Shown one piece after another: positions 3,209-57,404 of a stretch of 64,000 bases of DNA. The DNA lies in NCBI GenBank assembly GCA_015295835.1, contig DVEG01000027.1, forward strand, positions 186,001-250,000. The letters run 5' to 3'. Made by a program: the position numbers and the translations under genes. A model generated the notes under the pieces. It did no database searches, had not been told where the DNA came from, and saw nothing but the letters and a program-made list of their open reading frames with translations. The DNA comes from Oscillatoriaceae cyanobacterium M7585_C2015_266 (GTDB lineage: Bacteria > Cyanobacteriota > Cyanobacteriia > Cyanobacteriales > Oscillatoriaceae). Within the stretch, counting starts at the first letter, position 1. Each line of letters opens with the position of its first letter.

Positions 3209-3233
3209 TCTTGATATCACTCCGGCTGGGAGA

Positions 3234-3971: not shown

Positions 3972-4086
3972 GAAAAAGTTGAGTATTGAATAAGTTAAGT
4001 AGCTTTTTGTCGAGATTTTTGTCAAGATTGAATAAATATAGTTTGCTCTAGCAAAAATACTATAGAATTTTTTTAGCTGCTGAACT

Positions 4087-4968
4087 GTGTCTAAGCATAA
4101 TTATTTTCTGTGTTTTTTAATAACTCTTGTATTGGGGAGCGTTGCTAAGCCTGGACTTACACAAGCACTACTGCCTCGTCCCCTGCCCATCGATTCAACC
4201 CAGATGCAGAAAATGGGTATGAATCTCGCAGATGAAGCGGCTCAGTTGAGCCGCTTCAGACAGTATGAAATGGCTTTGCCAAGAGCGGAGCTAGCCACGC
4301 AACTAGCGCCAAAAAACCATCAAGCTTGGGCGCTGCTGGGAAATTTGTATATTCAAACTAGAGAACTGGAAAAAGGAGTAGCCGCCTTGGAAAAAGCACT
4401 GGCTATAGAGCCGGAAAATGCGGCTGTCTGGTTTGCTTTGGGATCGGCACGGTTTCAAAAGGAGCAGTATGCTGCTGCAATAGAGGCACTTTCTCAGGGT
4501 TTGAAATTAAAACCCAATGTTCCAGGGGCGTTATTCGATTTGGGGAATGCTTATTACAAGTTGAATAGGTTTGACGAGGCGATCGCCTATTATCAAAAAG
4601 CATTTGCGCAGGAGAATAAATTTTGGCCGGCGGTAAATAATATTGGGCTAGTAAAATACGAGAAGGGAGACGTCGCCGGTGCTATTAAGCGGTGGAAACA
4701 GGCGATCGCAATTGACAATAAGGCGGCTGAACCGCTCTTAGCACTGGCTGTTGCCTTGTATACAAAGGGCGAGCGCGAACAGGGTTTATCAATGGGGGAA
4801 GAAGCCCTGAAGCTGGATCTTCGTTATGCAGATATCCAGTTTCTCAAGGAAAATTTATGGGGCGAGCGCTTGATAGCAGACACCCAAAAGTTTTTAGCAA
4901 CCCCTCGTATCCAAGCCACCGTCGCTCGATTTCAGTCAGAATCGCCTCCACCGCCAAGATTCCCATAG
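4087..4968 (+). CDS. Tetratricopeptide-repeat protein with signal peptide
   Basis: The 293-residue product starts at GTG 4087 with a hydrophobic N-terminus (FLCFLITLVLGSVAKPGLTQA) that looks like a cleavable signal or membrane anchor. From about residue 45 to 245 it is built of roughly five to six TPR units of 34 residues, with consensus pieces such as AWALLGNLYIQ, AVWFALGSARF and ALFDLGNAYYKLNRFDEAIAYY. TPR arrays are protein-interaction scaffolds; cyanobacterial members often help assemble membrane complexes, but nothing here identifies the partner. The tail (SESPPPPRFP) is Pro-rich. It converges on a response regulator whose stop is 24 bases away. Confidence 0.85.
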   Translation: MSKHNYFLCFLITLVLGSVAKPGLTQALLPRPLPIDSTQMQKMGMNLADEAAQLSRFRQYEMALPRAELATQLAPKNHQAWALLGNLYIQTRELEKGVAALEKALAIEPENAAVWFALGSARFQKEQYAAAIEALSQGLKLKPNVPGALFDLGNAYYKLNRFDEAIAYYQKAFAQENKFWPAVNNIGLVKYEKGDVAGAIKRWKQAIAIDNKAAEPLLALAVALYTKGEREQGLSMGEEALKLDLRYADIQFLKENLWGERLIADTQKFLATPRIQATVARFQSESPPPPRFP

Positions 4969-4992
4969 ACGTTGCCACTGAGGGGCAGGTTT

Positions 4993-5463
4993 TCAGGCTG
5001 TCGCTTGCCCCCTACAGTTTTCATTTTCTTTTTCCCCGTTTTCTTTTTGCTTCACCTCCTCTTCTGAATCCTTGGGAAGGAGAGCGACAATCTGATTGAC
5101 AAACTCTTGGTGATCGACTACGGGTTTAGAGATATAGCCATCGGCACCGCTTTGTTCTAGAAATTGTTCGCGATCTCCTGCCATTGCATGAGCTGTTACC
5201 AGAATAATAGGCAGTTTAGATGTCTGGGGGTCTGATTTCAACATTTGAGTAATTTTAATGCCGTCAACAGCCTTGCCCTTGTAAACACTCCTTGCCAGAG
5301 ATACATCCATTAAAATAATATCTGCCTCTCCTGCCTGGGCTATCTGCATCACCTCCTCGACATTTTCGGTATGCTTGACGGCTAAGCCACCCCGTTTTGT
5401 GAGGATCTTTGAAAAGACGCGGGCATTTACTAAATCATCCTCTACAATTAGAACGGTTTTCAT
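4993..5463 (-). CDS. Single-domain response regulator (CheY/DivK-like)
   Basis: Starts at ATG 5463 (MKTVLIVEDD); a longer reading to 5520 adds 19 residues that look non-coding. The product is one receiver domain: acidic pocket Glu8-Asp9-Asp10, phosphoacceptor Asp53 in ILMDVS, the Thr of LVTAHA and the Lys of YISKPV. There is no output domain; the last 30 residues are a charged Glu/Lys/Asn tail. An insertion after the phosphoacceptor (SLARSVYKGKAVDGIKI) resembles cyanobacterial DivK-type receivers. No kinase is adjacent, so its partner must be encoded elsewhere. Confidence 0.88.
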   Translation of the reverse strand: MKTVLIVEDDLVNARVFSKILTKRGGLAVKHTENVEEVMQIAQAGEADIILMDVSLARSVYKGKAVDGIKITQMLKSDPQTSKLPIILVTAHAMAGDREQFLEQSGADGYISKPVVDHQEFVNQIVALLPKDSEEEVKQKENGEKENENCRGQATA

Positions 5464-6032
5464 GGCGCTTTCCTTTTCACTTGCGATCTGGAAACAGTCC
5501 GAACTCAGACATGTAAACAATGATGGTATTTTTCAAAGGTGAAAATTATATCCAAAAGTTCTATTGGCTCTTTCTTTCACTCCCTTTACTCGCATTTAAC
5601 ACCACACCATCTATTTTTTAGAATAAGGCATTTATAGTGCTGTTGGCGCATCTAGAGGCAGCGCGCCATATAAGTAAAAGCAATCACCCGAATTTGGTGG
5701 TTTTATCACTAAAGTGAGAAAAGTAAAGGCGCATTCACTTTTTTTCTTTCTTCGGTTATAGCATCTAGGCAGTAAAGGTGACGGGGGCTTGTTTTGTATG
5801 GGAAGGTGCGCTTTAGAATAAAGAGGGAAAGAATTCTGCGGATGGGGCTGTTGAGGGGATTTTAAGGGTAGAAACAGTGGTTGCCAAGAGTGCACTTTAT
5901 TTAGAGGGGTTGAAATACTAAAGTGAAAGATGAGAAGTATGCAGGCGATCGCTTTTGCAGAGTTTTTCCCTCGCCCCGTTAGACTCAAATTACATAAAAC
6001 TGTAAAAAGTAGGCACTTAAGGAAATAACCTC
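5464..6032. other. Gene-free stretch between response regulator and topoisomerase gene
   Basis: No convincing coding frame. A 118-codon minus-strand frame (5632-5988) has low-complexity, Pro/Ser-rich composition and no family resemblance. Several short AAAGTG/CACTTT-type motifs recur, including the palindrome tcactaaagtga near 5705, and a HIP1 site lies near 5944. It must hold the promoters of both flanking divergent genes, but I cannot point to them. Confidence 0.6.
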
Positions 6033-8615
6033 ATGGCAAAAAAGTTGAACCTTCTCTCCACAGGACAGGTGATATCCACTGCCCTGCACACAGAGATGCA
6101 ACAATCATACCTTGAATATGCCATGAGTGTGATTGTTGGGCGGGCACTACCAGACGTTAGGGATGGGTTAAAGCCAGTTCACAGGCGAATTTTGTATGCA
6201 ATGCACGAATTAGGGCTTACACCCGATCGCCCCTTCCGTAAGTGCGCCCGCGTTGTAGGAGACGTCTTAGGCAAATACCACCCCCACGGTGATCAAGCAG
6301 TTTATGACGCTTTAGTGCGGATGGTGCAAGACTTTTCAACGCGTTATCCCCTCTTGGAAGGGCATGGGAACTTCGGTTCAGTGGACAATGACCCCCCCGC
6401 AGCAATGCGCTACACCGAAACGCGCTTAGCAGCGATTAGTCACGAAGCTATTCTAAGCGAAATAGAAGCAGCGACAGTAGATTTTACCGGCAATTTCGAC
6501 AACTCCCAACAGGAGCCGACAGTATTACCAGCACAACTACCGATATTACTACTCAACGGCTCGTCTGGAATTGCCGTAGGGATGGCAACAAACATTCCCC
6601 CTCATAATCTCTCAGAGTTAGTCGATGGGTTGATTGCCCTAATTGATAACCCGGATTTGCCAGACGAAAAACTTTTTCAGCTAATTCCTGGACCAGATTT
6701 TCCCACAGGGGGAGAAATTATAGACTTAGAAGGAGTAAGAACAGCATATAAAACAGGGCGCGGCAGTATTGTAGTGCGGGGGATAGCCAGAATCGAACAA
6801 GTGCAAGCGGATTCTTCTTCCCGCCGCAAGGGAAATAAAAGTGTGCGCAACGCAATTGTAGTGACAGAGCTACCGTATCAAGTAAATAAATCCGCTTGGA
6901 TTGAAAAAATAGCAGAGTTAGTCAATCAAGGGAAAATCGAAGGCATAGCCGATATCCGAGATGAAAGCGATCGCGAAGGAATGCGGGTTGTCATCGAATT
7001 AAAAAAAGAAGTCTGCGGGCAAGAAGTTCTCGAAAACCTTTACCACCAAACAGCCCTGCAAACGACTTTTGGTGCCTTATTATTAGCCCTCGTAGACGGA
7101 CAACCCCGCCAACTGACGCTACGGGAATTATTACAGAAATTTTTAGAATTTCGCGAACAAACCCTAAATCGTCGTTATACCTACGAACTCGAACAGACTG
7201 AAAACAGACTTCACCTTTTAGAAGGCTTACTAAAAGCACTAGCAAATCTAGATGCTATAATCGAAATTCTCAAAAACGCGCCGGATGGAAGTAGCGCCAA
7301 AGTAACACTGCAAAACCAATTTGAACTAACTAGCACTCAAGCCGATGCCATTTTAGCTCTGCCACTGCGCCGCCTAACGGGAATAGAACAACAAAATCTG
7401 CGCTCAGAATATGAACAACTAAAAAAACAACAGACTAAGTTACAACTATTACTAAGCGCTCGCCATGAATTACTCAAAGCCCTAAAAAAAGACTTGCGCT
7501 CCCTCAAGAAAAAATACGGCGACGCCCGTCGTACCCGTATTAATATCGAACAACCTTCCCCCACAAACGATCACACCGACAAAAACAAAACCCCAGAATA
7601 CATCAATCCCCAAATTCCCAAATCCCGGCAAGACTCCCCCCCAACTCCACCCCCACCACCCCCCGAAGAACAAACGGTGCTAGAATTCACCCAGCGTGGC
7701 TATGTGCGGCGACTGCCAAAAAACGGGCATGTTTTGGCGAAAAAGCGAAAAACAGAAGCCTCGAAAGGAACGAGCGACTTTGTAATTCAAGTACAGCAGT
7801 GCAAGACAAATCAAGACGTGCTGGTACTTACCCGCACAGGAAAGGCATTTGCAATTAAAGTAGGAGAGATTCCGCCTACTCCTGGGCGCGAATCGAAGGG
7901 AATGCCGTTAGTAAGATTGCTACCTGCATCGGCGCAAATAACTCCAGAAGCGCTCGCTGCCCAATTTGTAGTATCAGATTACCTCGACAGTAGGGCACTG
8001 ATTCTGGTGACACAGCAAGGGCGTATCAAACGCCTGCCTTTGTTGGAGTTAGCAAATATAACTGGGCGAGGGCTGACTGTGATTAAATTGCAGCCTAATG
8101 ATCGTTTAGAATTTGCCTGTCTTGCTGCTACTGGGGAACAGCTTGTGCTGGCAACTACGGCGGGGCGCTTGTTGCGCTTTGAAGTGAATGATCAATCTTT
8201 ACCCCTGATGGGGCGCTCTGCTCAAGGGAATAAAGGCATCCGCGTGCGCAAGGAGGAACTGTTGGTAGGCTGTGCGATAGTGGATGATAATAGTAATCTG
8301 TTGCTAGTTTCTCAGGAGGGTTACTGCCAACGCCTGCCTCTTACTCTTTTACGACAGGCTTTGCGGGGCGAAATGGGTACGCAGGTGATGCATTTTGCCA
8401 GCAAGACGGATGCTTTGGCGGGACTAGTGCGGGCAGATGGGTTATCGGAGGTAATTGTGGTGACGTCTAGCGATCGCTTTTTACCTTTGCAGGTGGATGT
8501 CGTGCCTATTATGGCTAAGGGTGAAGCTGGCGAGCGCTTGATTTCTCTTTCTCCTCATGAGAAGGTTATCTCTCTTCTCATCCCTGCACTTGATTTAATT
8601 TCTAGTCAGTCGTAA
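6033..8615 (+). CDS. gyrA: Type IIA DNA topoisomerase A subunit (GyrA/ParC family)
   Basis: Cleaves and rejoins double-stranded DNA in partnership with a GyrB/ParE ATPase subunit encoded elsewhere. The 860-residue product has the winged-helix region with active-site Tyr127 in [10 protein letters not shown], a tower and coiled coil, and a C-terminal beta-pinwheel with repeated blades (for example [12 protein letters not shown] near the end). The canonical GyrA box (QRRGGKG) of supercoiling gyrases is not visible; the first blade reads [13 protein letters not shown]. The assignment between GyrA and a ParC-like paralog is therefore open. Residue 88, equivalent to E. coli GyrA Ser83, is Gln. The linker at about 505-550 is disordered, Pro-rich and contains an STRR-like repeat. 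Confidence 0.88.
7605..7632. repeat. STRR-like heptad repeat within gyrA linker
   Basis: C-rich heptad-type sequence (aatcccc, aaattccc, aaatcccggca) lying in frame in the disordered linker, where it encodes the IPKSRQ segment. The same sequence, read in the same frame, occurs in mutL at 26939-26958. Confidence 0.7.
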
Positions 8616-9283
<668 letters not shown>

Positions 9284-9301
9284 TTTCTAGCTCTTCTGCA
9301 A

Positions 9302-9335
9302 AAAACCCGGTTTTTTGATCAAGAAACCGGGTTTT
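9302..9335 (+). terminator. Hairpin terminator between convergent glnB and rdgB
   Basis: Perfect stem aaaacccggttt / aaaccgggtttt (9302-9313 with 9324-9335) and a 10-base loop. It is symmetrical with T-rich ends on both strands, so it can serve both genes. AAACCCGGTTT-type hairpins recur in this window (see 11924-11950). Confidence 0.8.
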
Positions 9336-9366
9336 CCGGGTTGGTTTTTCGGATTTTTTGGGATTT

Positions 9367-9960
9367 TCAAGCCTGTGCTTGCAATTGTTTCAACTGGGGC
9401 AGTAGGGCTTGGAAGGCTTTGCCACGATGGGAAACTAAACTTTTAGTTTCAGGCGTCATTTCTGCAAAGGTAAGTTTTTTTTCTGGCACATAAAAAATAG
9501 GGTCGTAACCAAAGCCATTGCTGCCGCGAGGGCTGTGTAAGATTTCACCACGACAAGTTGCTTCGACTTGCAAGGCAATGCTGCCGTCGGGGCAAGAGAG
9601 AGCGAGCGCGCAGACAAATTGTGCACCTCGGTTTGTTTCGTTACCTAGTTCTTGTAGCAGGCGCTGAATGCGCTCGCTATCTGTGGAACCGTAGCGAGCT
9701 GAATAAATACCGGGAGCACCTTTGAGGGCGTCCACTTGCAAGCCGGAATCGTCAGCGAGCGCCCATTCTCCTGTCGCTAAAGCCACTTTACTGGCTTTGA
9801 GACAAGCATTTTCCATGAAAGTCGTACCGGTTTCCTCCACTTCGATTTCATCTGGTTTCAGGCGCAATTCCAAGTCTAAATCAGCTAAATATAACTGCAT
9901 TTCCCGCAACTTACCGGGATTTCCAGTGGCAACTACTAACAATTTTGGACCTTTAATCAT
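9367..9960 (-). CDS. rdgB: XTP/dITP diphosphatase (HAM1/RdgB family)
   Basis: House-cleaning enzyme that hydrolyses non-canonical purine nucleoside triphosphates (dITP, XTP) to monophosphates and pyrophosphate, keeping them out of DNA and RNA. The 197-residue product shows the family signatures in order: VVATGNPGKLREM at the N-terminus, the acidic metal site ALADDSGLQVDAL, GFGYDPIFYVPE, and the C-terminal SHRGKAFQ. Start is ATG 9960. Its stop lies 31 bases beyond the glnB terminator hairpin, on the opposite strand. Confidence 0.95.
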   Translation of the reverse strand: MIKGPKLLVVATGNPGKLREMQLYLADLDLELRLKPDEIEVEETGTTFMENACLKASKVALATGEWALADDSGLQVDALKGAPGIYSARYGSTDSERIQRLLQELGNETNRGAQFVCALALSCPDGSIALQVEATCRGEILHSPRGSNGFGYDPIFYVPEKKLTFAEMTPETKSLVSHRGKAFQALLPQLKQLQAQA

Positions 9961-10114
9961 TTCCGGCTTTGGTATTGATGGGGCAATCAGCAGGTATAGC
10001 TGCTTACGACTATAAAAAGTGCCGATGGTAAATTTGGGTAAAAATTTATGAAAAAATGTTAAGAAAGTTTAGTACAGTTAGAGTATTAACCAGCAAACAC
10101 TATTTGAAACTGCC

Positions 10115-11800
10115 ATGATAGCAGATCGATTTCCCTGGCTAACCGCGATTGTCTTGCTGCCACTGATTGCTTCCCTAGCTATTCCCGTGCTGCCAGATAA
10201 AGACGGCAAGCGGGTGCGATGGTATTCTTTAGGCGTGGCGATCGCGGATTTTGTCTTAATGTGCTACGCCTTCTGGAAGCATTACGATGCTAGCAGCGCT
10301 ACTTTTCAACTCGCGGAAAAATATACCTGGGTACCTCAATTAGGTTTAAACTGGGCAGTTTCCGTTGACGGGCTGTCAGTATCCCTCGTGCTTCTGGCAG
10401 GATTAGTAACCACTCTATCCATCTTTTCAGCGTGGCAAGTTGATCGCAAACCGCGCCTATTCCACTTCCTAATGCTCATACTCTACGCAGCACAGATAGG
10501 AGTCTTCGTTGCCCAAGACATTCTGCTGCTGTTCATAATGTGGGAAATCGAGTTAGTTCCCGTTTACCTGCTCATCTCCATTTGGGGTGGTCCAAAACGT
10601 CGCTACGCTGCCACCAAATTCATTCTCTACACCGCTGCCTCCTCCGTCTTCATTCTCGTGGCGGGGCTAGCAATGGCATTCTATGGCGGCAATGTCACTT
10701 TCGATATTCTTGCCCTCGGCGCCAAAAATTACCCCTTAGCTCTAGAATTACTACTCTATGCCGGCTTACTAATTGCATTTGGTGTCAAGCTCGCCGTTTT
10801 CCCCATGCACACTTGGCTGCCTGATGCCCATGGCGAAGCATCTGCACCTGTATCAATGATTCTAGCAGGCGTGCTCCTAAAAATGGGGGGATACGGGTTA
10901 ATTCGCCTAAATATGGAAACCCTCTCCGACGCCCACATTTACTTTGCACCAGTTATCGCCACCCTCGGAGTTGTCAATATCATTTACGGCGCGTTTACTT
11001 CCTTCGGGCAAACCAACATGAAACGCCGCCTTGCCTATTCATCGGTTTCCCACATGGGCTTTGTGTTACTCGGCATTGCCTCTTTCACCGATTTGGGTAT
11101 GAGCGGGGCTGTGCTCCAGATGCTCTCTCACGGTTTGATTGCAGCGCTGCTATTTTTCCTAGCGGGTGTAACTTACGATCGCACTCACACTCTGGCATTA
11201 GATGAAATGGGCGGTATCGGGCAGGCAATGCCAAAGGTTTTTGCTTTGTTTACCGCTGGTGCAATGGCATCCCTGGCACTTCCCGGCATGAGTGGATTTA
11301 TCAGCGAACTCTCGGTTTTTGTTGGCTTAAGTACTAGCGACATTTATAGTTATTCTTTCCGCACCGTCACTGTCTTCTTGTCGGCAGTCGGTCTCATCCT
11401 TACTCCTATTTATCTGCTCTCGATGCTGCGGCAAGTATTCTACGGTTCTGATACTGCGCCTATTTGTGATTTGAGTGTTTCCAGTGCTAAAAATCAGAAT
11501 AACGAAGAAGCGGTTTGTTTCGGGACAAATTGTGTTTTACCTATACATGCTAAGTTTAATGATGCCAAACCGCGAGAAGTGTTTATTGCCGCTTGCTTTC
11601 TGTTGTTGATTATCGGTATCGGGTTGTACCCAAAACTGGCTACTGAGATATATGATGTAAAGACTGTGGCGGTAAATGCTCAAATGCGCCAATCTTATGC
11701 TGAAATTACTCTGACTAATCCCCAATTTTATGCTAAGGGGTTTAAGGCTCCTAGTATCATTGAGTCTGAAATGGCTTCGGTAGCTGCCAGTTTCAAATAA
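10115..11800 (+). CDS. ndhD: NAD(P)H-quinone oxidoreductase (NDH-1) subunit 4
   Basis: Proton-pumping antiporter-like subunit of thylakoid NDH-1, which works in respiration and cyclic electron flow. The 561-residue protein has about 14 membrane helices and the family core, including [16 protein letters not shown] with the conserved Glu, the [15 protein letters not shown] loop and KMGGYGLIR. The close match of [14 protein letters not shown] and [15 protein letters not shown] to NdhD1/NdhD2 types suggests the respiratory rather than the CO2-uptake (NdhD3/D4) form; this subtype call is inference. An unusual 30-residue Cys/Asn-rich insert (about 450-482, [15 protein letters not shown]...) sits before the last helix. 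Monocistronic, with a terminator hairpin downstream. Confidence 0.95.
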
Positions 11801-41067: not shown

Positions 41068-42474
41068 GTGAGTTTCACAATTCAGCAGGCTTTAATTCCT
41101 GTCGAAAACGGTTATACTACTGCCGATGTACAAATTGTAGGCGAGCGCCTTGTCGCCATTGCCCCTAAATTGGAAATTATCGGCACTGTTGTCAGCGGGG
41201 AAAACAAACTTTTACTTCCCGGATTTGTTAACGCTCACACCCACTCCTCAGAAATCTGGCAGCGGGGGGCGCTTCGCCCGTTTCCTCTTGAATTATGGCT
41301 TGCCGAACTTTATGAATTTCCCCCCCTACAACCGGAACAAATTTATCTGAGTGCTTTAGTTACTGCTACAGAAACATTACTTTCTGGTGGCACAAGTATT
41401 GTTGATCACTTGGTTTTGATTCCGGGTAAAGAAATCGAATCTATTACTCAAGCTATTCGCGCCTACAAAGAAATCGGTATTCGCGTTTTTATGGCTCCTT
41501 TAATTTATGATGAGCTTCTTGATGCTGGGCTTCCTTCTGGAAATATAAGAGTAGAAAATTCTGCTAGGGAATTGCCGACTGCTGAGACGCTAGCACTGAT
41601 TTTGGAAGCTGTAAATAAGTTTCACAATCCGCAAGAATGTGTTTCGGTTTTGGTGGCTCCGACTGGTATACAACTGTGTTCTGATAAATTATTTGAAGGC
41701 TGTATAGAATTAAGCGATCGCTATAATCTATGCCGCCATTCTCATCTTTTAGAAACCAAAGCTCAACAACTTATCGCTCAGGAAAAATATGGTTGTAGTG
41801 CTGTCGAACATTTGAAAAATATCGGTTATCTCAGCCAGCGTACTTCTCTTGCTCATTGTGTATGGTTGAGCGAGCGCGATATTAACATTTTAGCAGAAAC
41901 TGGTGCAACTGTTGTCCACAATCCCCTTAGCAATTTGCGTCTCGGTAGCGGTATTGCTCCTATTATAAAATATCTTAAAGCTGGTGTCAATGTCTCTTTT
42001 GCTTGTGACGGAGCAAGCAGCAATGACTCGCAAGATTTGCTGGAAGCGATTAAAATAGGTTCTCTACTGCACAATGTTACTACTTTTGATTATCGCGACT
42101 GGATTTCGCCGCGTCAGGCAGTAGAAATGGCATCTTTAGGTGGTGCTAAAGGATTAAATCTAGAAAATGAAATCGGTTCTTTGACAGTAGGCAAGAAAGC
42201 TGATATTGTTTTATATGATTTGACAAATTTATCGCTCTTGCCTCGCACTGATCCAATTGGATTGCTCGTAAGAGGGCGACCGACAAATGTTGTGGATAGT
42301 GTTTGGGTAAATGGCGAGCGTATTGTCGCAGATGGAAAACCGACGCGAATTAATATAGATGAATTAAGACGGGAATTGTGGGAGCGCTCGCAAGTTACAG
42401 GCGAGCGCCCTATTTCAAATGCTGTGCGCGAATTAGAAGCGCATTACCGTCGTGTTATGGGTTTGAATGTTTGA
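41068..42474 (+). CDS. Metal-dependent amidohydrolase (AtzA/TrzN/MtaD-like deaminase family)
   Basis: 468 residues from GTG 41068. The amidohydrolase barrel shows the metal motif LLPGFVNAHTHSSEIWQRG, the His of CRHSHLLETKAQQ, LAHCVWLSERD, and the Asp of VSFACDGASSNDSQDLLEAI. The C-terminal KADIVLYDL and WVNGERIVADGKP match the composite small beta domain. Relatives deaminate or dechlorinate aminated ring compounds (triazines, 5-methylthioadenosine, guanine). The actual substrate is unknown. It opens the metabolic gene cluster at 41-51 kb; the TIGR03792 gene follows after 24 bases, so they are likely co-transcribed. Confidence 0.88.
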   Translation: MSFTIQQALIPVENGYTTADVQIVGERLVAIAPKLEIIGTVVSGENKLLLPGFVNAHTHSSEIWQRGALRPFPLELWLAELYEFPPLQPEQIYLSALVTATETLLSGGTSIVDHLVLIPGKEIESITQAIRAYKEIGIRVFMAPLIYDELLDAGLPSGNIRVENSARELPTAETLALILEAVNKFHNPQECVSVLVAPTGIQLCSDKLFEGCIELSDRYNLCRHSHLLETKAQQLIAQEKYGCSAVEHLKNIGYLSQRTSLAHCVWLSERDINILAETGATVVHNPLSNLRLGSGIAPIIKYLKAGVNVSFACDGASSNDSQDLLEAIKIGSLLHNVTTFDYRDWISPRQAVEMASLGGAKGLNLENEIGSLTVGKKADIVLYDLTNLSLLPRTDPIGLLVRGRPTNVVDSVWVNGERIVADGKPTRINIDELRRELWERSQVTGERPISNAVRELEAHYRRVMGLNV

Positions 42475-43603: not shown

Positions 43604-44791
43604 TTATTTCAAAAAGCGGGCGGGAGACATCAGGGGCAGTATTTCATCTTCTCCCGTTGCCATATAATTTGCAAATCGTCGCGCTAAAGGTGGCACCATT
43701 CCAAGTGGACTGCTGCTGAAACCAGAAAATATATGAATACCTTGCCAACCTGGTATAGCTCCTATACAAGGAAGGCGATCTGGGCTGAATGCCACTAAAC
43801 ACTGATGCCAACTAGCTGGCAAATTACCTAAAGCTGGCAGAATATTAGCTATTTTTGCCGTAATTTCTTCTTGACTTTTTAATTGATTCGTGCTATCAAA
43901 TAAAATTTCATGGTTGGTGAAAACTCGACTATACTGACCGATTCTGATTCTACCATCTAATAACTGAATGGCTCCGGCATCTAAAATTGGGGGTGCCAAT
44001 TCCCGCTCTGGTTCATCCCAAAGTTTTTCTATTTCGGGGGTGCTGGCGAGGGCTTCCAACTGTAGACGTTTTAGACGGGCGGGAACTACCATTGTTTGCA
44101 ATTGCAGGTAGGTGGGTGCAGTTTCCAAAAGTTCGGCACGGGTGAAATAAACTTTAGCAAAAATACCTGCAGATTTCAACAGGGGACGAGTAAGCCCGCC
44201 AGCACAAATGGCGACGTTAGCGCTATGATAGATTTGGCTGGCTGTTTTCACACCTATGATGGTATTGTTTTGTTTTAGTAATTCTAAAACTCGGTCAATT
44301 TCCAGGCAGCCGCCAACACGTTTAAATGCCTGACAGTAGGCGATAACTGTAGCTTCTGGGTTGATAATTCCTTGGCGCACGACTAGAGCAGCAGCGAGCG
44401 CCTGTGGATTAAGTAAAGGTTCTAAATCGCACGCTTCCTTTACTCCTATCAAACGAGGAGGGATAGCGCAATTGGCATAAGTAGCGGCAATTTCCTCTGA
44501 GTTTTCTCCGGGATAGATTGTCAATAATAAATCTAATTCCCGAAATTGGGTATCAAATTCTAATTCATCTGAAAGAATTCGGTGCAGATGAATCCCCTCA
44601 GTATTGAGTAGGCGCGTTAGCTCTGTGGTACCAGACCAATAAAAAATCCCTCCGTAACTGAAACGAGTAGCATTTGCGATCGCTTTATTTTGCTCTAATA
44701 GGAGTACGGAAAAACCTTTTTTAGCCAATTCATAACTCAGAGCTGCGCCCGTGATTCCTGCACCGACAACAATCCAATCGTATGTTTTCAT
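43604..44791 (-). CDS. FAD-dependent DAO-type oxidoreductase
   Basis: 395 residues with N-terminal FAD-binding WIVVGAGITGAALSYELAKKGFSVLLLEQ and the C-terminal return motif FSPDRLPCIGAIPGWQGIHIFSGFSSSPLGM, as in glycine, sarcosine and D-amino acid oxidases. This family oxidises secondary or primary amines with O2 or another acceptor. There is no sign of covalent flavin attachment that I can identify. Its place beside SDR, amidohydrolase and creatininase genes suggests it oxidises an amino compound released by them; that is inference. The upstream membrane-protein gene ends 7 bases before this start. Confidence 0.87.
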   Translation of the reverse strand: MKTYDWIVVGAGITGAALSYELAKKGFSVLLLEQNKAIANATRFSYGGIFYWSGTTELTRLLNTEGIHLHRILSDELEFDTQFRELDLLLTIYPGENSEEIAATYANCAIPPRLIGVKEACDLEPLLNPQALAAALVVRQGIINPEATVIAYCQAFKRVGGCLEIDRVLELLKQNNTIIGVKTASQIYHSANVAICAGGLTRPLLKSAGIFAKVYFTRAELLETAPTYLQLQTMVVPARLKRLQLEALASTPEIEKLWDEPERELAPPILDAGAIQLLDGRIRIGQYSRVFTNHEILFDSTNQLKSQEEITAKIANILPALGNLPASWHQCLVAFSPDRLPCIGAIPGWQGIHIFSGFSSSPLGMVPPLARRFANYMATGEDEILPLMSPARFLK

Positions 44792-45545: not shown

Positions 45546-46106
45546 ACGTAAAACCAGTTTTTTATATCAAAATTTTTAGCCCCATGCCTTGAATAGCCTT
45601 GGGCTTCATAAATTATTATCTAGCATCTAAAAATATCTTCTATGTTTTCTATTTTACATTTAATTTAAAATTAATTATTAGCATTAAATTTTATTTTTTT
45701 ATTATAATTCTTAAAATTTTGACTATATTTTTACCGCCTCTTACCTCCTGAAAATGGAACTTTCCGTGATTATACGGATGTTTGGGAACCGATGTTTTGT
45801 ATACACCTTATAAAGTTGTTTTTAAAAATTTAATAATTAAGGGCTCTTCCTCCTTTATTTGTTTGCAGAGCGGGAAGGCTTTTAGCCTCAGCTATTCCCT
45901 CTACTTTCGCAAGATAAATGCCAAAAGCTGATAGTCGACTAACCTTTATTTTTTTTTAATAATTGTCAACACTATTGGTAGCGGCGCTTGCCCCTAGAGG
46001 TAGGGCGCTATAGATTTTCAGCCCCTGACTACAGGCAGTATTATTTTATACACATTTTACCAGATTCTCTGCTACACTATAACCTCAATACACTTAAAAA
46101 TCGATT
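45546..46106. other. AT-rich divergent intergenic region in the metabolic cluster
   Basis: 561 bases without a supported coding frame, very AT-rich from about 45600 to 45740. It separates the minus-strand FAD/SDR unit from the plus-strand GlcD-creatininase operon and must hold both promoters. The plus-strand one is recognisable as an NtcA-type promoter at 46038-46078; I found no GTA-N8-TAC for the minus-strand unit. Confidence 0.6.
46038..46078 (+). promoter_or_regulatory. Putative NtcA-activated promoter
   Basis: GTA-ttatttta-TAC at 46038-46051 is an exact match to the NtcA consensus GTA-N8-TAC. Twenty-one bases further, TACACT (46073-46078) fits the TAN3T -10 box. In class II NtcA-dependent promoters the spacing is about 20-24 bases and the site replaces the -35 box. 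The start codon at 46107 gives a leader of roughly 20 bases. Such a pair can arise by chance about once or twice per window this size, but its position right before an operon makes it credible. Confidence 0.6.
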
Positions 46107-47450
46107 ATGAGAAAATCCCCCGACTTGTTGAATGCCTTAAAAGAAGCCTTATCTGGGATAGAGGTGATTACCGAGCCCTTACAAGTTGCAAAATTATCCC
46201 AAGATTACCACAATTTCAGCCCCATATTACAAGCAAAATTATCAGACAAAAAAGGGGATTTAGTAGCGCGTGTCAAAAACGAAAAAGAAGTATTGCAGGT
46301 AGCGTCAGCCTGTGTCAAATATAAAGTACCGTTAACGGTACGCGGGGCAGGAACAGGCAACTATGGGCAATGTGTACCCCTATACGGGGGCGTAATTTTA
46401 GATGTCAGCCAGATGCAAGAGATTCGCTGGATAAAACCAGGAAGCGCCAGAGTGGAAGCCGGAGCCAAACTAGGGATAATCGACAAAAAAGCGCGGGAGA
46501 TTGGCTGGGAAATGCGCATGATTCCCTCGACATTTCGCACAGCAACTATAGGGGGATATATTGCAGGAGGTAGTGCAGGCAGCGGTTCAGTAACTTATGG
46601 TCAATTGTGCGATCGCGGCAACATCACCGCCTTGCGCGTCGTCACCATGGAAGACGAACCCCGTACTCTAGAATTGCGCGGCGACGACATCTATAAAGTC
46701 AACCACACCTGGGGGCTTACTGGCATCATCACCGAAGTAGAAATCCCCCTTGCTCCTGCATATCCCTGGGCAGAATTAATAGTTGCCTTTGACGATTTTA
46801 TGACAGCCGCTCACTTCGGTCAAGCCCTCAGCGATGCCGACGGAATTGTAAAAAAACTTGTCAGCATTCACGCTGCTCCCATTCCTTCCTACTTTGCCGC
46901 CATTAAAGATTTTATCCCAGAAGGAACCCACTGTGCCTTACTGAGCATTGCTGAATTTAACCTCGAATCCCTGCAAGGCTTAATCAACGAATACGGCGGC
47001 AAAATTTGTTATCAAAAACCAGCCTCAGAAGCAGCAAAAGGCATCACCTTAACAGAATTTTGCTGGAATCATACCACCTTACACGCCCGCACTGTCGAGC
47101 CATCTCTTACTTACCTACAAACCTTATTTCCCCCTGACAAATCTTTAAAATTAGTAGAACACTTCTATAAATATTTCGGCGACGAAGTGATGATGCACCT
47201 GGAATTTATTCGCGTCAATGGCGAAGCAATTCCCGCTGCCTTGCAACTCGTTCGCTACACTACCGAAGAACGCCTTAACGAAATTATACACTATCACGAA
47301 GAACAAGGAGCATTTATTGCCAATCCCCACACTTATATTATAGAAGATGGCGGGCGAAAAATTATCGCTCCCCAACAATTGGAATTTAAAAAAATGGTTG
47401 ATCCTTACGGATTGTTGAATCCTGGAAAAATGCGGACGCAAGGAGGGTAA
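46107..47450 (+). CDS. FAD-binding oxidoreductase (GlcD/PCMH type)
   Basis: 447 residues with an N-terminal PCMH-type FAD domain: VKYKVPLTVRGAGTGNYGQCVPLYGGVILDVSQM, SGSVTYGQL, and WGLTGIITEVEIPLAPAYP. The C-terminal half includes EVMMHLEFIRVNG and NPGKMRTQGG, the usual end of FAD-linked oxidase C domains. The family oxidises 2-hydroxy acids and related compounds, often donating electrons to quinones or cytochromes. The substrate here is unknown. It is the first gene of the operon behind the putative NtcA promoter; the creatininase gene starts 4 bases after it. Confidence 0.88.
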   Translation: MRKSPDLLNALKEALSGIEVITEPLQVAKLSQDYHNFSPILQAKLSDKKGDLVARVKNEKEVLQVASACVKYKVPLTVRGAGTGNYGQCVPLYGGVILDVSQMQEIRWIKPGSARVEAGAKLGIIDKKAREIGWEMRMIPSTFRTATIGGYIAGGSAGSGSVTYGQLCDRGNITALRVVTMEDEPRTLELRGDDIYKVNHTWGLTGIITEVEIPLAPAYPWAELIVAFDDFMTAAHFGQALSDADGIVKKLVSIHAAPIPSYFAAIKDFIPEGTHCALLSIAEFNLESLQGLINEYGGKICYQKPASEAAKGITLTEFCWNHTTLHARTVEPSLTYLQTLFPPDKSLKLVEHFYKYFGDEVMMHLEFIRVNGEAIPAALQLVRYTTEERLNEIIHYHEEQGAFIANPHTYIIEDGGRKIIAPQQLEFKKMVDPYGLLNPGKMRTQGG

Positions 47451-47454
47451 AATT

Positions 47455-48273
47455 ATGCTCCACGGTTATATACCTCCAGAACGCTTTTTCCCCTATCTTA
47501 CTTGGAAAGATATACAAGGGATGCCAGATAAAGAAAATACGGTTATAATTCAAACCGTAGGCGCCATTGAGCAACACGGCGCTCATTTGCCTTTAATAGT
47601 CGATTCAGCAATAGGCATGGCAGTAGTGGGAAAAGCATTACATAAACTCGAAAGCTCTATACCTGCTTATGCTTTGCCAAACTTGTATTATGGGAAATCA
47701 AACGAACACTTACACTTTCCCGGTACGATTACTCTCAGCGCCCAAACTCTTTTAAATATGCTATTAGAAATAGGCGAGAGTATTTACCGGGCGGGATTTC
47801 GGAAATTTGTTTTAGTTAATTCTCACGGCGGGCAACCACAAGTCATGGAAATTGTCGCCCGCGACTTGCACGTTAAATATGCAGATTTTTTAGTATTTCC
47901 GCTGTTTATTTGGCGGGTACCTAATATCACCGCCGAGTTGCTTTCTGAAAAAGAGTTAAAATTGGGCATCCATGGGGGAGATGCGGAAACCAGTGTGATG
48001 TTATCTATTTTACCGGAACATGTAAAAATGGAAGCAGCTGTTTGTGAATATCCCCAAATGCCAGAAGATAGTATCCTGAGTATAGAGGGAAAATTGTCGT
48101 TTGCATGGGTGACGCGAGATTTATCTGAAAGTGGAGTGATGGGTGATGCAAAGATGGCGACAAAAGAAAAAGGCGAGCGCATTTTAGAATCTCTTGTAAA
48201 TGGGTGGGTGCGGGTTATAAAAGACATCCACAGCTTCCGCTTGCCCCCACTGGAAAAAAGAAACAAGTGTTAA
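47455..48273 (+). CDS. Creatininase family metallohydrolase
   Basis: 272 residues with all creatininase-family metal and active-site segments: VGAIEQHGAHLPLIVDSAIG (Glu, His, Asp ligands), LVNSHGGQPQ and IHGGDAETSVMLSI. The family opens cyclic amides or hydrolyses formamide-type bonds (creatinine, formamidopyrimidine intermediates, MftE peptide cleavage). Which of these applies cannot be told; true creatininases act on creatinine. The 4-base gap to the upstream oxidoreductase implies translational coupling. Downstream lies the isochorismatase-like gene, 93 bases away. Confidence 0.88.
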   Translation: MLHGYIPPERFFPYLTWKDIQGMPDKENTVIIQTVGAIEQHGAHLPLIVDSAIGMAVVGKALHKLESSIPAYALPNLYYGKSNEHLHFPGTITLSAQTLLNMLLEIGESIYRAGFRKFVLVNSHGGQPQVMEIVARDLHVKYADFLVFPLFIWRVPNITAELLSEKELKLGIHGGDAETSVMLSILPEHVKMEAAVCEYPQMPEDSILSIEGKLSFAWVTRDLSESGVMGDAKMATKEKGERILESLVNGWVRVIKDIHSFRLPPLEKRNKC

Positions 48274-48366
48274 AAATTAATAAAAATCTTGACAACTATT
48301 TCAGGTTTTAATTTTTAATAGATAACAAAAATAACAAAAAATAATAAATAAGAGTAAGTAAGTTTT

Positions 48367-49149
48367 ATGAAGCGAGCGCTCCGCACATTGGGAATTCCCC
48401 CTAATGCCTGGGCTGTAGATGCAGAAATTGCCGACATTACCCGCCCGCCTCTAGAACCTCAAGTGGTAGCCCTGTCAACCGAAACGAAAAAATTATATAT
48501 AGACTTGGCAAAAACCGCCATTTTAGTAATTGACATGCAAAATGACTTTTGCCACCCAGACGGCTGGCTAGCACACATGGGCGTAGATATCACCCCCACA
48601 CGCGCGCCCATTAAACCACTACAGGAATTACTGCCTGCTTTACGCAGTGCCAATATCCCTGTGATTTGGGTGAATTGGGGAAATCGCCCCGACTTATTAA
48701 ATATCAGCGCTAGCTTGCTCCACGTTTACAACCCGACTGGCGACGGCATCGGATTGGGGGCTCCCCTGCCGAAAAATCAAGCCCCAGTGCTGACGGCAGG
48801 TAGCTGGGCGGCAGCAGTGGTAGAGGAATTAGAGCAAAAGCCGGAAGATATCCGTGTAGATAAATACCGGATGAGCGGCTTTTGGGATACACCTTTAGAC
48901 AGTATTTTACGAAATATAGGTAAAACAACTTTACTGTTTGCCGGGGTAAATGCGGATCAATGTGTGATGACAACTCTGCAAGATGCAAATTTCCTAGGCT
49001 ATGATTGTATATTGGTGAAAGATTGTACGGCGACAACTTCCCCAGAATATTGTTGGCTGGCGACTTTATATAACGTCAAACAGTGCTTTGGTTTTGTCAC
49101 TGACTCAGGTGAAATACTAAAAGCGATCGCATCAGCAAATTCGCCGTGA
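48367..49149 (+). CDS. Isochorismatase-like cysteine hydrolase
   Basis: 260 residues. The catalytic triad of the isochorismatase-like hydrolases is visible: Asp in ILVIDMQNDFCHPDGW, Lys in RVDKYRMSGFWDTPLDSIL, and Cys in GVNADQCVMTTLQDANFLG. A cis-peptide-type loop precedes the Cys. Members with this triad hydrolyse amide bonds, for example N-carbamoylsarcosine amidase, biuret hydrolase and RutB. The fit to an amide or ureide pathway is therefore good, but the substrate is unproven. The first 45 residues are an extra N-terminal extension (RTLGIPPNAWAVDAEIADIT...). Confidence 0.88.
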   Translation: MKRALRTLGIPPNAWAVDAEIADITRPPLEPQVVALSTETKKLYIDLAKTAILVIDMQNDFCHPDGWLAHMGVDITPTRAPIKPLQELLPALRSANIPVIWVNWGNRPDLLNISASLLHVYNPTGDGIGLGAPLPKNQAPVLTAGSWAAAVVEELEQKPEDIRVDKYRMSGFWDTPLDSILRNIGKTTLLFAGVNADQCVMTTLQDANFLGYDCILVKDCTATTSPEYCWLATLYNVKQCFGFVTDSGEILKAIASANSP

Positions 49150-49186
49150 CAAACAGACAACTAAAATATTCTCACATTAAAATATC

Positions 49187-49642
49187 ATGTATAATAAAAG
49201 CTGCGTCATCCCCATAGTCAAGTCTCCAAAAGATTATCAAGCCTATCGTATCAGCCCCCACGATACCAATCGTTTAGCGATCGTCTTTGATCCGAATACC
49301 GCCAATACCTCATTAACCATTTGCGTAGAAATCTTCGATATCGGCGGCAAAACCCCTCCCAATCGACATCAATTAGCCGTAGAAATGTTTTTCATTATCA
49401 AAGGCGAAGGGCTGGCGACTTGCGACGGAAAAACTATTCCGATTCGAGCCGGAGATAGCCTATTAGTGCCGCCCACAGGCACTCACCAAATTCGCAATAC
49501 TGGCTCAGAGCGCTTATATGCACTCTGCATTATGGTACCCAACGAAAACTTTGCCGAATTGATTCGCAGCGGCACCCCAGTTGAATTAGATGCCGAAGAC
49601 ATAGCAGTTTTGAGGCGCTTAGATGCACTCGTGCCATGCTAA
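49187..49642 (+). CDS. Cupin domain protein
   Basis: 151 residues, one small beta-barrel cupin. Metal-ligand positions are NRHQLAVEMFFIIKGEG and, in the second motif, VPPTGTHQIRNTG; the GDSLLVPPTG core is typical. Small cupins of this kind may be isomerases, dioxygenases or sensors. Its stop overlaps the next gene start by 7 bases, indicating translational coupling in the operon. Confidence 0.85.
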   Translation: MYNKSCVIPIVKSPKDYQAYRISPHDTNRLAIVFDPNTANTSLTICVEIFDIGGKTPPNRHQLAVEMFFIIKGEGLATCDGKTIPIRAGDSLLVPPTGTHQIRNTGSERLYALCIMVPNENFAELIRSGTPVELDAEDIAVLRRLDALVPC

Positions 49643-51267
49643 AAGTTCTTCCTAAAGAAACAGCATCAATGCTAACTAGGGATGGGATTCGCTTAGATGC
49701 CGATATTTACCGCCCCGATGCCGAAGGAAAATTTCCGGTATTACTGATGCGACAACCCTACGGGCGAGCCATAGCCTCCACAGTTGTTTATGCCCATCCC
49801 ACCTGGTATGCAGCCCAAGGCTATATCGTCGTCATTCAAGACGTGCGAGGGCGCGGCACCTCTGAAGGCGAATTCAAACTATTTGCCAATGAAACAGAAG
49901 ACGGTTTCGACAGCATTAATTGGGCAGCCAATTTACCTGGCAGCAACGGAAAAGTTGGCATGTATGGATTTTCTTACCAAGGCATGACGCAACTGTATGC
50001 AGCATCAACCAATCCCCCCGCCTTAAAAACCATTTGCCCTGCCATGTTGGGTAGCGATTTATACGCAGATTGGGCTTATGAAGGGGGAGCATTCTGTCTA
50101 CAAACCAATCTAGCCTGGGCACTTCAACTGGCAACAGAAACCGCCCGCTTACGTAACGACGAAACCGCCTATCAAAAACTTTTCAACGCTTCTCGCAATC
50201 TTCCACTATTCGAGCCGATTCCCGCGCGCCCAGAAATTTTAGAAAATCTAGCTCCTGACTCATTCTATCACGATTGGGTAAAAAATTCTCAACCTGGGGA
50301 ATATTGGCAGCAACTTTCTCCCAATCTGGAAACAGTCGATTTACCAATGCTCCACATCGGCGGATGGTTCGATACTTACATGCGCGGTACCTTAAATTTA
50401 TATAAAAAAATCGTAGCCCGCAGCGCTTACCGCCAACAATTAATAGTAGGTCCCTGGAGCCACTTGCCATGGAGTCGCCAAGTAGGAACCGTCGATTTTG
50501 GCACAGCAGCAGCTAGCCCAATTGATACTTGGCAAATCCGGTGGTTTAACCACTTTCTTAAAGGATTGGATACAGGATTGCTCGCTGAACCGCCGATTTC
50601 TCTATTTGAGATGGGCAGCAACCAATGGCGCTCATTTGATGTGTGGCCTAACAATAATTTTAAATCTTACTATTTGGCAAGTACGGGGCTTGCTAACATC
50701 AGAGAAGATAGCGGCACTCTCAGAGAAACTTTATCAGAAATCTGCTGCCAAGATGTTTTCGTTCACGATCCTTGGCGAGCAGTTCCGTCTCTTGGGGGTC
50801 ACGCTACTTTTCCCCCTGGCTCGTTTGATCGCTCTAGTTTGGATTGCCGTGCAGATATTTTAACATACACTTCTGAGCCTTTAACAGAAGATTTGTACTT
50901 AGCAGGAGATGTGGCGGTTGAAATCTGGTGTCGAGCTGACACGCCCAGTTTTGATTTGTGTGCTGTACTTTCGCAAGTTAAACCAAATGGCAGCGTTTGG
51001 AATTTTACGCAAGGTTATGCGCGAGTTAATCCCGGTGAAAAAACTAATCCGCTGCGAATTGAGTTGCAACCTACTTGTATTAAAATAGCAAAAGGAAATG
51101 CTCTGCGGCTGAGTTTGAGTGCAGCTTGTTTCCCCGCTTATGCAATTAATCCGGGCACTGGGGCTGCACCGAGTGAGACGCGCTTGATGGAGATGCAAAT
51201 TATTACTGTCACTGTTAATAGTGGGGGAGATTCTCCCTCGCAAGTCTTGCTGCCTGTACTTTTTTAA
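49636..51267 (+). CDS. CocE/NonD family alpha/beta hydrolase
   Basis: 543 residues. The first two thirds is an alpha/beta hydrolase: DADIYRPDAEGKFPVLLMRQPYG, DVRGRGTSEGEF, nucleophile Ser in MYGFSYQGM, and the His of IVGPWSHLPW. The last third is the jelly-roll X-Pro dipeptidyl-peptidase C-terminal domain (DILTYTSEPLTEDLYLAGDVAVEIW). Relatives hydrolyse cocaine esters, glutaryl-7-ACA and Xaa-Pro peptides, so an ester or amide substrate is likely. No secretion signal is visible. It ends the NtcA-type operon; a hairpin follows. Confidence 0.92.
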   Translation: MLKVLPKETASMLTRDGIRLDADIYRPDAEGKFPVLLMRQPYGRAIASTVVYAHPTWYAAQGYIVVIQDVRGRGTSEGEFKLFANETEDGFDSINWAANLPGSNGKVGMYGFSYQGMTQLYAASTNPPALKTICPAMLGSDLYADWAYEGGAFCLQTNLAWALQLATETARLRNDETAYQKLFNASRNLPLFEPIPARPEILENLAPDSFYHDWVKNSQPGEYWQQLSPNLETVDLPMLHIGGWFDTYMRGTLNLYKKIVARSAYRQQLIVGPWSHLPWSRQVGTVDFGTAAASPIDTWQIRWFNHFLKGLDTGLLAEPPISLFEMGSNQWRSFDVWPNNNFKSYYLASTGLANIREDSGTLRETLSEICCQDVFVHDPWRAVPSLGGHATFPPGSFDRSSLDCRADILTYTSEPLTEDLYLAGDVAVEIWCRADTPSFDLCAVLSQVKPNGSVWNFTQGYARVNPGEKTNPLRIELQPTCIKIAKGNALRLSLSAACFPAYAINPGTGAAPSETRLMEMQIITVTVNSGGDSPSQVLLPVLF

Positions 51268-55670: not shown

Positions 55671-57302
55671 TTACCACACCATTGCCAGCCCATCAGAGCG
55701 AGGCTCAGAAGCGGCGATAAAAGTATTATTTTGCCGCAGAATAATTTGACCGCGTCCAAATTGCCCCATCTGTATGTATTGAGGGTTGTCGAGGGAACTA
55801 TCTTGACAGATATCGTGCCCTCGATTTACCAATTCCTGAGCGATCGCTTCCGAAACAGACGGCTCCAGCAGTACGCAATTATCGCCCACAAATTGCCACC
55901 GGGGTGCATCGAGAGCAGCTTGAGGATTTAAACCGCAATCCACCATATTTACAACTACTTGAACATGTGCTTGAGGCTGCATTGGCCCTCCCATAACACC
56001 AAATGGCCCTAAAGGCTGATCATCTTGGCTAAGGAAGCCCGGTATTATAGTATGATAAGGGCGTTTAGCGGGCGCATATTCATTAGGGTGCCCAGGTTCG
56101 AGAGTAAAACCGCAGCCTCGGTTGTGCAGGGCAATACCAGTTTCAGGGATAAGGATACCGCTACCAAAGCCGGTAAAATTGGATTGAATAAAAGAAACCA
56201 TCAAATCGTTGTCAGCAGTAGCGAGATATACAGTTCCACCTTTGGGCAAACCGGGATTAGCTAAAGGAATGGCCTTTTCGCCGATGAGCGAGCGCCTTTG
56301 CTGGGCATAGGCTTTATCTAACAGTCGCTCTACGGGCATTTGCATATAATTAGGATCTGCCACGTAACGGCGAACGTCAGCAAATGCTAGTTTCATCGCT
56401 TCTATTTGCAGGTGGTAGAATTCTCCTGTCTCACGGTAACGATATTGGTTTTTCCCCAGTTGAAAACCTTCTAAGATATTGAGGGCGATAAGGGCTGCTA
56501 AGCCTTGGGTATTGGGTGGAATTTCCCAAACAGTAATGCCGCGATAGTTAGTGGAGATGGGGTTTACCCAGTCAGCACGGTGGTAAGCGAAATCAGCGGT
56601 TGTGAGAAAGCCACCGGTATCGGCGGCAAAGTTAGCTATTTTTTCAGCAAGTTTTCCCTGATAGAAGCTTTCACCGCCACTGGCGGCGATTTCGCGCAGG
56701 GTTTGTGCATGGGCAGGGCTGCTCCAAATTTCCCCGGCAACCGGAGCGCGAGAATTTTTGAAAAAAACTTCTTTGAAAGGCTGGAAGCAAGCCTCTTTTA
56801 GGGGTAAGTAAATTTTTTCTGCAGCTTTCCAAATCTGTGCAGTATAGGGGGAGACGGGGAAACCTTCGACGGCGTAGTGGATAGCGGGGGCAAACAGTTG
56901 TTCAAATGGTAGTTTTCCCCATCGCTGCCAAAGAGCGCGCCATGCAGAGACGGCTCCCGGCACTGTGACGGCTTCCCAGCTTTGAGGGGGTATGCTTTCC
57001 ATGCCGTCAAAGTGCGATCGCATTATTTTCTGGGGGCTTCTCCCGGAAGCATTTAAGCCGTGCAGTTGCCCATCCCAGACAAGGGCGAAGGCGTCGGAGC
57101 CAATGCCGTTGCAGGTGGGTTCGACGACGGTGAGGGCAATTGCCATCGCCAGGGCTGCGTCTACTGCATTGCCTCCTGCCCATAACATTTGCATGCCAGC
57201 GATCGCTGCTAGGGGTTGGCTCGTCGCTACTGCACCCCTTTTCCCCATCAGCACACGTCTTGCCGACGGGTAGGGATATTCCGTCAGGTTTCCCAGGTTC
57301 AT
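55671..57302 (-). CDS. ggt: Gamma-glutamyltransferase family protein
   Basis: Autoprocessing Ntn hydrolase that cleaves or transfers gamma-glutamyl groups of glutathione-type compounds. From ATG 57302 (MNLGNLTEYPYPSARRV) it has about 543 residues. Features: AVATSQPLAAIAGMQMLWAGGNAVDAALA, VVEPTCNGIGSDAFALVWDG, and the processing Thr in PKGGTVYLATADNDLMVSFIQS, with the GPFGVMGGPMQPQAH loop. The sequence type is closer to YwrD-like members than to secreted E. coli GGT; no signal peptide is visible. A start at 57362 would add 20 residues. It follows a DUF7219 gene with a 102-base gap. Confidence 0.9.
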   Translation of the reverse strand: MNLGNLTEYPYPSARRVLMGKRGAVATSQPLAAIAGMQMLWAGGNAVDAALAMAIALTVVEPTCNGIGSDAFALVWDGQLHGLNASGRSPQKIMRSHFDGMESIPPQSWEAVTVPGAVSAWRALWQRWGKLPFEQLFAPAIHYAVEGFPVSPYTAQIWKAAEKIYLPLKEACFQPFKEVFFKNSRAPVAGEIWSSPAHAQTLREIAASGGESFYQGKLAEKIANFAADTGGFLTTADFAYHRADWVNPISTNYRGITVWEIPPNTQGLAALIALNILEGFQLGKNQYRYRETGEFYHLQIEAMKLAFADVRRYVADPNYMQMPVERLLDKAYAQQRRSLIGEKAIPLANPGLPKGGTVYLATADNDLMVSFIQSNFTGFGSGILIPETGIALHNRGCGFTLEPGHPNEYAPAKRPYHTIIPGFLSQDDQPLGPFGVMGGPMQPQAHVQVVVNMVDCGLNPQAALDAPRWQFVGDNCVLLEPSVSEAIAQELVNRGHDICQDSSLDNPQYIQMGQFGRGQIILRQNNTFIAASEPRSDGLAMVW

Positions 57303-57404
57303 TCTTGAGAGGGGGGCTAGAGAAAAGAGAAAAACTTTCTCTATTTTATAAAAAGCAGACAACTGCCTATTACTTTTGCGCTTGTCTTGGGAGGGGCTAC
57401 AAGT

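Follow-up and report, generated by a model that had tools for sequence, protein, structure and literature searches.

A five-gene cyanobacterial operon headed by a flavin oxygenase relative, with a probable role in nitrogen heterocycle catabolism

A stretch of 64,000 nucleotides from an Oscillatoriaceae cyanobacterium (contig DVEG01000027.1; hereafter the window) carries, at positions 46107-51267, a five-gene operon that encodes a flavin adenine dinucleotide (FAD)-linked oxidoreductase (FAD4), a creatininase-family protein (CREAT), a cysteine hydrolase (CYSH), a cupin (CUP) and a CocE/NonD hydrolase (COCE). Two modules meet in it: FAD4, CREAT and COCE, which form a tightly co-occurring core of mostly unlinked genes in cyanobacteria, and CYSH with CUP. 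The gene set is real and conserved, it probably encodes a catabolic pathway for a nitrogen heterocycle, and it is undescribed as far as searches of the open-licence literature show; nothing found there connects creatininase with NtcA, with pterin or with the cyanobacterial partners. Our preferred reading, which we hold tentatively and at a little under even chance, is that the two modules together catabolise a bicyclic ring rich in nitrogen, with a pteridine, for example a fragment of folate or biopterin, as the likeliest substrate.

A preliminary description of this DNA had proposed that the operon, behind an NtcA promoter, recovers nitrogen from an amide or ureide-like compound. The creatininase, cysteine hydrolase, cupin and CocE genes that it named are present, and re-measurement returned the same spacing (gaps of 4, 93 and 37 bases, then a 7-base overlap); its title passed over the first gene, FAD4, which is the most informative of the five. 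Judged by full-length matches in sequence and predicted fold, FAD4 is a flavoenzyme of the 6V42 type. Its closest solved relative, PDB 6V42/6V43, matches over the full length at 45% identity (phmmer E 2e-120; profile E 9e-163), and the predicted structure agrees with 6v42 at a Foldseek E of 3.5e-49, a TM of 0.94 and again 45% identity. The PDB title of that relative is a flavin oxygenase "involved in folate catabolism", and because the lead enzyme is of this type we favour, as a guess at the substrate, a pteridine-like bicyclic ring over a simple amide or ureide. The proposal of nitrogen recovery is kept in part: the functional set stands, and neighbours elsewhere that deal in nitrogen-rich compounds (an AtzE-family amidase, an annotated HpxZ, a guanidine-I riboswitch operon in one genome and ATP-binding cassette (ABC) importers) agree with it, while the simple amide or ureide is replaced.

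The core of the proposed pathway is apparent from its distribution. In 60 related genomes from 33 families, presence was set by hand from strong matches, and broken or partial copies were counted as present (FAD4 in G008, G021, G023 and G054; CREAT in G023 and G054). Carriers numbered 27 for FAD4, 30 for CREAT, 28 for COCE, 26 for CYSH, 32 for CUP, 13 for amidoH (an amidohydrolase gene outside the operon) and 11 for the importer binding protein. FAD4 and CREAT occurred together in 27 genomes, with FAD4 never alone and CREAT alone in three (p = 1.5e-8, one genome per family), and FAD4 and COCE together in 26, with one and two genomes holding FAD4 or COCE alone (p = 2.3e-7, likewise), p-values that adjust for relatedness only partly. 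The single FAD4 genome lacking COCE is G023, in which FAD4 is broken. Across the phylum (194 genomes), FAD4 at 46% identity or more was found in 40 genomes and COCE in 40, with both in 39 of the 41 carriers; the other two are G215, with FAD4 alone, and G021, with COCE and a broken FAD4. Two loci caught the eye here: in G021 (L077) FAD4 is broken or split and CREAT and COCE are retained, and in G023 (L050) a broken or split FAD4 stands with only a fragment of CREAT and no COCE, which looks like a set in decay. Physical linkage of a creatininase to FAD4 is seen in the window and, within 10 kb, in 7 of 80 named FAD4 loci, many of which are incomplete at their ends.

CYSH and CUP behave as a second module. 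CUP is present in 25 of the 26 CYSH genomes, FAD4 and CYSH co-occur weakly (p 0.07 over the 60 genomes, 0.025 by family), and FAD4 and CUP do not co-occur significantly (p 0.28). In G001 and G004, which belong to the same family as the window's genome, FAD4, CREAT and COCE follow one another in order and CYSH-CUP lies on another contig; CYSH, CUP and COCE are consecutive in G008 (where a stop breaks COCE), G011, G018, G024 and G039. Since FAD4-CREAT-COCE and CYSH-CUP-COCE each occur apart in relatives, the window holds both partial operons merged.

The four remaining enzymes can be placed by family, and catalytic residues or motifs were identified in CREAT, CYSH and COCE. CREAT shows the creatininase fold and has E39, H41, D50 and H124 (invariant in 23 of 23 aligned sequences); it was rejected as a true creatininase (TIGR04448, 102.4 bits with a cut-off of 235), and as MftE or IolN its scores also fell below the cut-offs, so that no subfamily cut-off tried was passed. 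CYSH has D56, K166 and C199 (invariant in 19 of 19) and is closest to RutB, and its assignment as RutB or BiuH was rejected at 136.7 bits with a cut-off of 377.95 and 127.6 bits with a cut-off of 370, respectively. CUP is 52-53% identical to the cupins that adjoin CYSH in Roseomonas and Pantoea, and its weak matches are ureidoglycine aminohydrolases. COCE is clearly, by subfamily score and catalytic motifs, a CocE/NonD hydrolase (TIGR00976, 481 bits, cut-off 66.3; cocaine esterase, E 7e-71; motifs GFSYQG, GGWFD and GPWSH).

Further evidence that these families work together comes from other phyla. FAD4 matches were found in 141 plasmid records, and four clusters were inspected (Comamonadaceae, Rhizobium, Klebsiella and Pantoea), all of which combine a FAD4 relative (39-47% identity) and a creatininase (37-50%) with an ABC importer, an amidohydrolase and RidA. 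Their importers are 39-59% identical to importer proteins adjoining FAD4 in cyanobacteria, and of the four amidohydrolases, the three that were tested all fall in the cytosine-deaminase branch. The second module has its own counterparts: a Roseomonas mucosa plasmid carries CYSH-CUP-creatininase-ABC-amidase-HpxZ with CocE adjoining on the other strand, in Pantoea sp. X85 a BMP-type importer accompanies cupin-CYSH-amidohydrolase, with a creatininase nearby, and in Rhizobium CYSH-amidase goes with a gamma-glutamyltransferase and likewise a BMP-type importer. The neighbourhoods of CocE in Azospirillum and of CYSH in Streptomyces gave no informative cluster.

From these families we infer a chemically consistent scheme, including its order of steps, in which FAD4 would oxidise the pteridine ring, CREAT would hydrolyse the cyclic amide arising from that oxidation, CYSH and amidoH would strip carbamoyl or amino nitrogen from the resulting fragments, COCE would hydrolyse a side chain or else an ester or amide product, and CUP would process or isomerise an intermediate. 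The pathway would end in ammonia, CO2 and small acids, and NtcA may drive the operon under nitrogen shortage. Classical bacterial pterin degradation runs via tetraoxypteridine to xanthine-8-carboxylate; an oxalyl-type fragment of the pteridine ring would suit the HpxZ, AtzE and gamma-glutamyltransferase neighbours. A wider proposition, which we think improbable, is that many cyanobacteria hold an undescribed pathway for pteridine or folate mineralisation whose core consists of FAD4, a ring-opener of the creatininase family and a hydrolase of the CocE type; this core is usually dispersed along the chromosome and would here be gathered with CYSH-CUP into an NtcA-controlled operon for nitrogen recovery. 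Three generically named and mostly unlinked genes that travel together in the cyanobacteria examined point to one testable pathway. Cyanobacteria make pterin glycosides, and if the substrate is a pteridine the pathway would give them a route to regain pterin nitrogen, and enzymes annotated by family alone would gain a function.

The candidate promoter region reads as the preliminary description had it, with the box, a spacer of 21 bases, TACACT and the first open reading frame (ORF) from the ATG at 46107 all confirmed (Table 1). Both sequence elements of an NtcA class II promoter are there, a GTA-N8-TAC box and a TAN3T -10 at a spacing that places the box near -41.5 of the candidate start site; an alternative -10, TATAAC at 46078-46083, overlaps TACACT. 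The earlier estimate of one or two such boxes per 64 kb was too low: the window contains 12, and its shuffles 6.56 +/- 2.50, with at least 12 in 4 of 100. Three of the 12 have TAN3T 20-23 bases downstream. Besides the box at 46038-46051, exact boxes with TAN3T 21 bases on lie at 9994-10007 and 11616-11629. When the 561-bp intergenic region was shuffled 5000 times, 0.3% of the shuffles had the full class II layout within their last 150 bp. The whole genome contains this layout 145 times, as against 99 for the reversed pattern, and most exact layouts are therefore probably due to chance and a lone exact match is weak evidence. As a positive control we looked at the genome's ammonium transporter; it is without an exact box, and its uncertain start means that it provides no control.

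Conservation before orthologous operons, which had been put forward as a check, with absence of the site to count as refutation, gave a divided answer. No GTA-N8-TAC precedes FAD4 in the two same-family genomes, G001 and G004 (both ordered DAO-MEM-FAD4-CREAT-COCE), and the box is missing from most orthologues among the 80 named FAD4 loci: an exact box within 300 bp upstream was found in 5 of 80 and in 62 of 765 background ORFs, and a class II layout in 4 of 80 and 16 of 765. Three of those four layouts belong to Microcoleus and read GTA-N8-TAC-N21-TATAAT at -64. A wider look at the family that includes Microcoleus covered 59 genomes, of which 38 gave a match, and 30 loci were read. In the genus of G039, judged to be Microcoleus, the box is retained at -64/-65 of FAD4, with TATAAT 21-22 bases further, in 7 of the 12 loci; three others keep GTA without TAC, two are without the whole stretch, and the 18 loci from other genera have no exact box. 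By eye the second half-site is no better preserved in Microcoleus than its surroundings, and for this reason an NtcA promoter in part of the genus is supported but unproven. The Microcoleus sites render the window site plausible, and NtcA control is on this sequence evidence a fair candidate, not established.

Before the other operon genes, NtcA layouts were not enriched over background ORFs. Relaxed class II layouts were counted at 2 of 26 CREAT loci (one being the window), 0 of 19 CYSH, 0 of 21 CUP, 1 of 27 COCE, 1 of 9 amidoH, 1 of 5 DAO (an amine-oxidase-like gene) and 4 of 11 importer genes (2 of the 4 in G024), with a background of 27 in 950. Exact boxes within 400 bp stood before FAD4 in 4 of 26, CREAT in 1 of 26, CYSH in 1 of 19, COCE in 0 of 27, CUP in 1 of 21 and amidoH in 1 of 9 (background 61 in 955), the CYSH and amidoH matches being one shared site in G024; a further nine importer loci yielded one. 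A general NtcA regulon was considered and dropped, the counts being insufficient to claim it and the importer numbers too small to judge.

Table 1. Features of the operon, its candidate promoter and two nearby genes (window coordinates)
Feature	Position	Strand	Domain or basis
FAD4, FAD-linked oxidoreductase, 6V42 flavin oxygenase relative	46107..47450	+	FAD_binding_4 (PF01565)
CREAT, creatininase-family amidohydrolase	47455..48273	+	Creatininase domain (PF02633)
CYSH, isochorismatase-family cysteine hydrolase, RutB/BiuH-like	48367..49149	+	Isochorismatase domain (PF00857)
CUP, single-domain cupin	49187..49642	+	Cupin_2 (PF07883)
COCE, CocE/NonD serine hydrolase	49636..51267	+	Peptidase_S15/PepX_C; TIGR00976
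amidoH, TRZ/ATZ-type amidohydrolase, outside operon	41068..42474	+	PF01979
DAO, FAD-dependent amine-oxidase-like protein, outside operon	43604..44791	-	PF01266
Candidate NtcA box GTATTATTTTATAC	46038..46051	+	exact GTA-N8-TAC match
TACACT, candidate -10 (TAN3T), 21 bases past box	46073..46078	+	sequence

Several genes outside the operon may belong to the same pathway. The likely partner is amidoH, which lies 3.6 kb before FAD4 in the window and, in seven relatives, divergent to CYSH within 2.3 kb (directly in six, with two ORFs between in G018); it accompanies FAD4 in 12 of its 13 genomes (p 1e-4) and is also associated with CYSH (p 9e-4). It fell short of the 8-oxoguanine deaminase model (255 of 532 bits), and a 2PAJ-type deaminase is not its best structural relative (2paj at 114.8 bits, fifteenth of 36 PDB matches). 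DAO is a possible partner: G001 and G004 retain it upstream of FAD4, and in G011 and G045 it lies no more than 4 kb from CYSH. Of the 80 named loci, 16 have at least one part of an ABC importer upstream of FAD4 and in the same orientation, and 6 have all three parts; 10 of the 11 importer genomes have FAD4. Rfam searches returned no riboswitch or other match in the window, one guanidine-I riboswitch (L118) and three tRNAs in the loci of eight relatives, and one tRNA in seven importer loci. A gamma-glutamyltransferase-family gene is found at 55671-57362 (-), 4.4 kb past the operon; this family takes in oxamate amidohydrolase.

The missing boxes described above weigh against the pteridine reading and its regulation by NtcA, as do several other results. 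The folate label derives from the PDB title alone, and no paper describing 6V42/6V43 was among the matches listed. Not clearly a pterin deaminase, amidoH matches 2PAJ with a lower score than it does 8-oxoguanine deaminase and the s-triazine hydrolases, and its best identity to the amidohydrolases of the proteobacterial clusters is 26-30%. No ABC importer adjoins the window operon, and a search of the window's genome at E 1e-40 did not find the binding protein. Among the 60 genomes, CYSH occurs without FAD4 in 11 and CUP in 16. Twelve genomes of family f41 (1.6-3.0 Mb) carry a distant FAD4 (35-38% identity) and no COCE, and if they are included the phylum-wide count becomes 39 with both, 13 with FAD4 alone (from 1) and 1 with COCE alone. 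The Roseomonas mucosa cluster, finally, has no FAD4 among its annotated genes, an importer of another kind and a more distant creatininase (39%).

There is reason to consider the breakdown of purine-derived ureides or oxalurate, in which CYSH would remove a carbamoyl group, CREAT would open a hydantoin-like ring, and oxalurate or oxamate would pass to AtzE/HpxZ or to gamma-glutamyltransferase-type hydrolases. This is possible, if on the unlikely side. The Roseomonas cluster includes an annotated HpxZ and an amidase, three CYSH/CUP loci an AtzE-family amidase, and four loci a gene distantly like ureidoglycolate lyase that scores far below the family cut-off; the nearest relative of CYSH and the weak matches of CUP point the same way, and the ggt of the Rhizobium CYSH cluster is 39% identical to the window gene at 55671-57362. 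However, these ureide links run mostly through CYSH and CUP, in many genomes without FAD4, whereas the core is FAD4-CREAT-COCE and the nearest relative of FAD4 is tied to folate, not urate.

It is also conceivable that the modules are only casually joined in this genome, with FAD4-CREAT-COCE serving one pathway and CYSH-CUP another, such as the use of biuret or guanidine-derived nitrogen. The separate contigs in G001 and G004 and the weak association of FAD4 with CYSH would fit, as would G045, where positions 3148-3281, 3398-8478 and 8732-10055 of locus L118 hold a guanidine-I riboswitch, an agmatinase-family gene (possibly a guanidine hydrolase), HypB and an ABC binding protein before CYSH-CUP on the same strand. 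Two ORFs before CYSH-CUP in that locus resemble, by eye, the permease and ATPase belonging to the binding protein. Yet CYSH-CUP-COCE is consecutive in five other genomes, CYSH, CUP, creatininase and CocE sit together in Roseomonas, and amidoH accompanies both FAD4 and CYSH, which makes a casual union rather unlikely. We are equally doubtful that the enzymes detoxify damaged or spent pterin or folate cofactors with no nitrogen scavenging, the NtcA box being a chance match. The lack of the box in the two same-family operons and in most orthologues, and an excess of exact layouts over the reversed control of only 1.5-fold, favour such a reading, but a local chance of about 0.3% and the box, 21-22 bases and TATAAT upstream of FAD4 in 7 of the 12 Microcoleus loci do not.

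The operon that we would assign to pteridine catabolism can be set beside several known systems. The promoters of urtA, nirA, ntcB and glnA are canonical NtcA class II promoters (PMC3898017); the window site likewise has an exact GTA-N8-TAC and a TAN3T -10, and differs in its spacer of 21, in TACACT in place of TATAAT, in a start site that is predicted and in not being kept in two same-family operons. With RutB and the biuret hydrolase BiuH, CYSH shares its family and the D-K-C catalytic residues at scores far under the cut-offs. CREAT shares the fold and the main metal-site residues of the creatininase family (creatininase, MftE and IolN) and carries HGG at the position where true creatininase has HYE. 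Relative to the clusters on the four plasmids, the window operon is without an adjoining importer or RidA and adds CYSH, CUP and COCE. FAD4 is homologous to the 6V42/6V43 flavin oxygenase over its whole length (TM 0.94), its own substrate being predicted, and four of the five operon families recur in the Roseomonas mucosa cluster (CYSH 60%, CUP 53%, CocE 49% and creatininase 39% identity).

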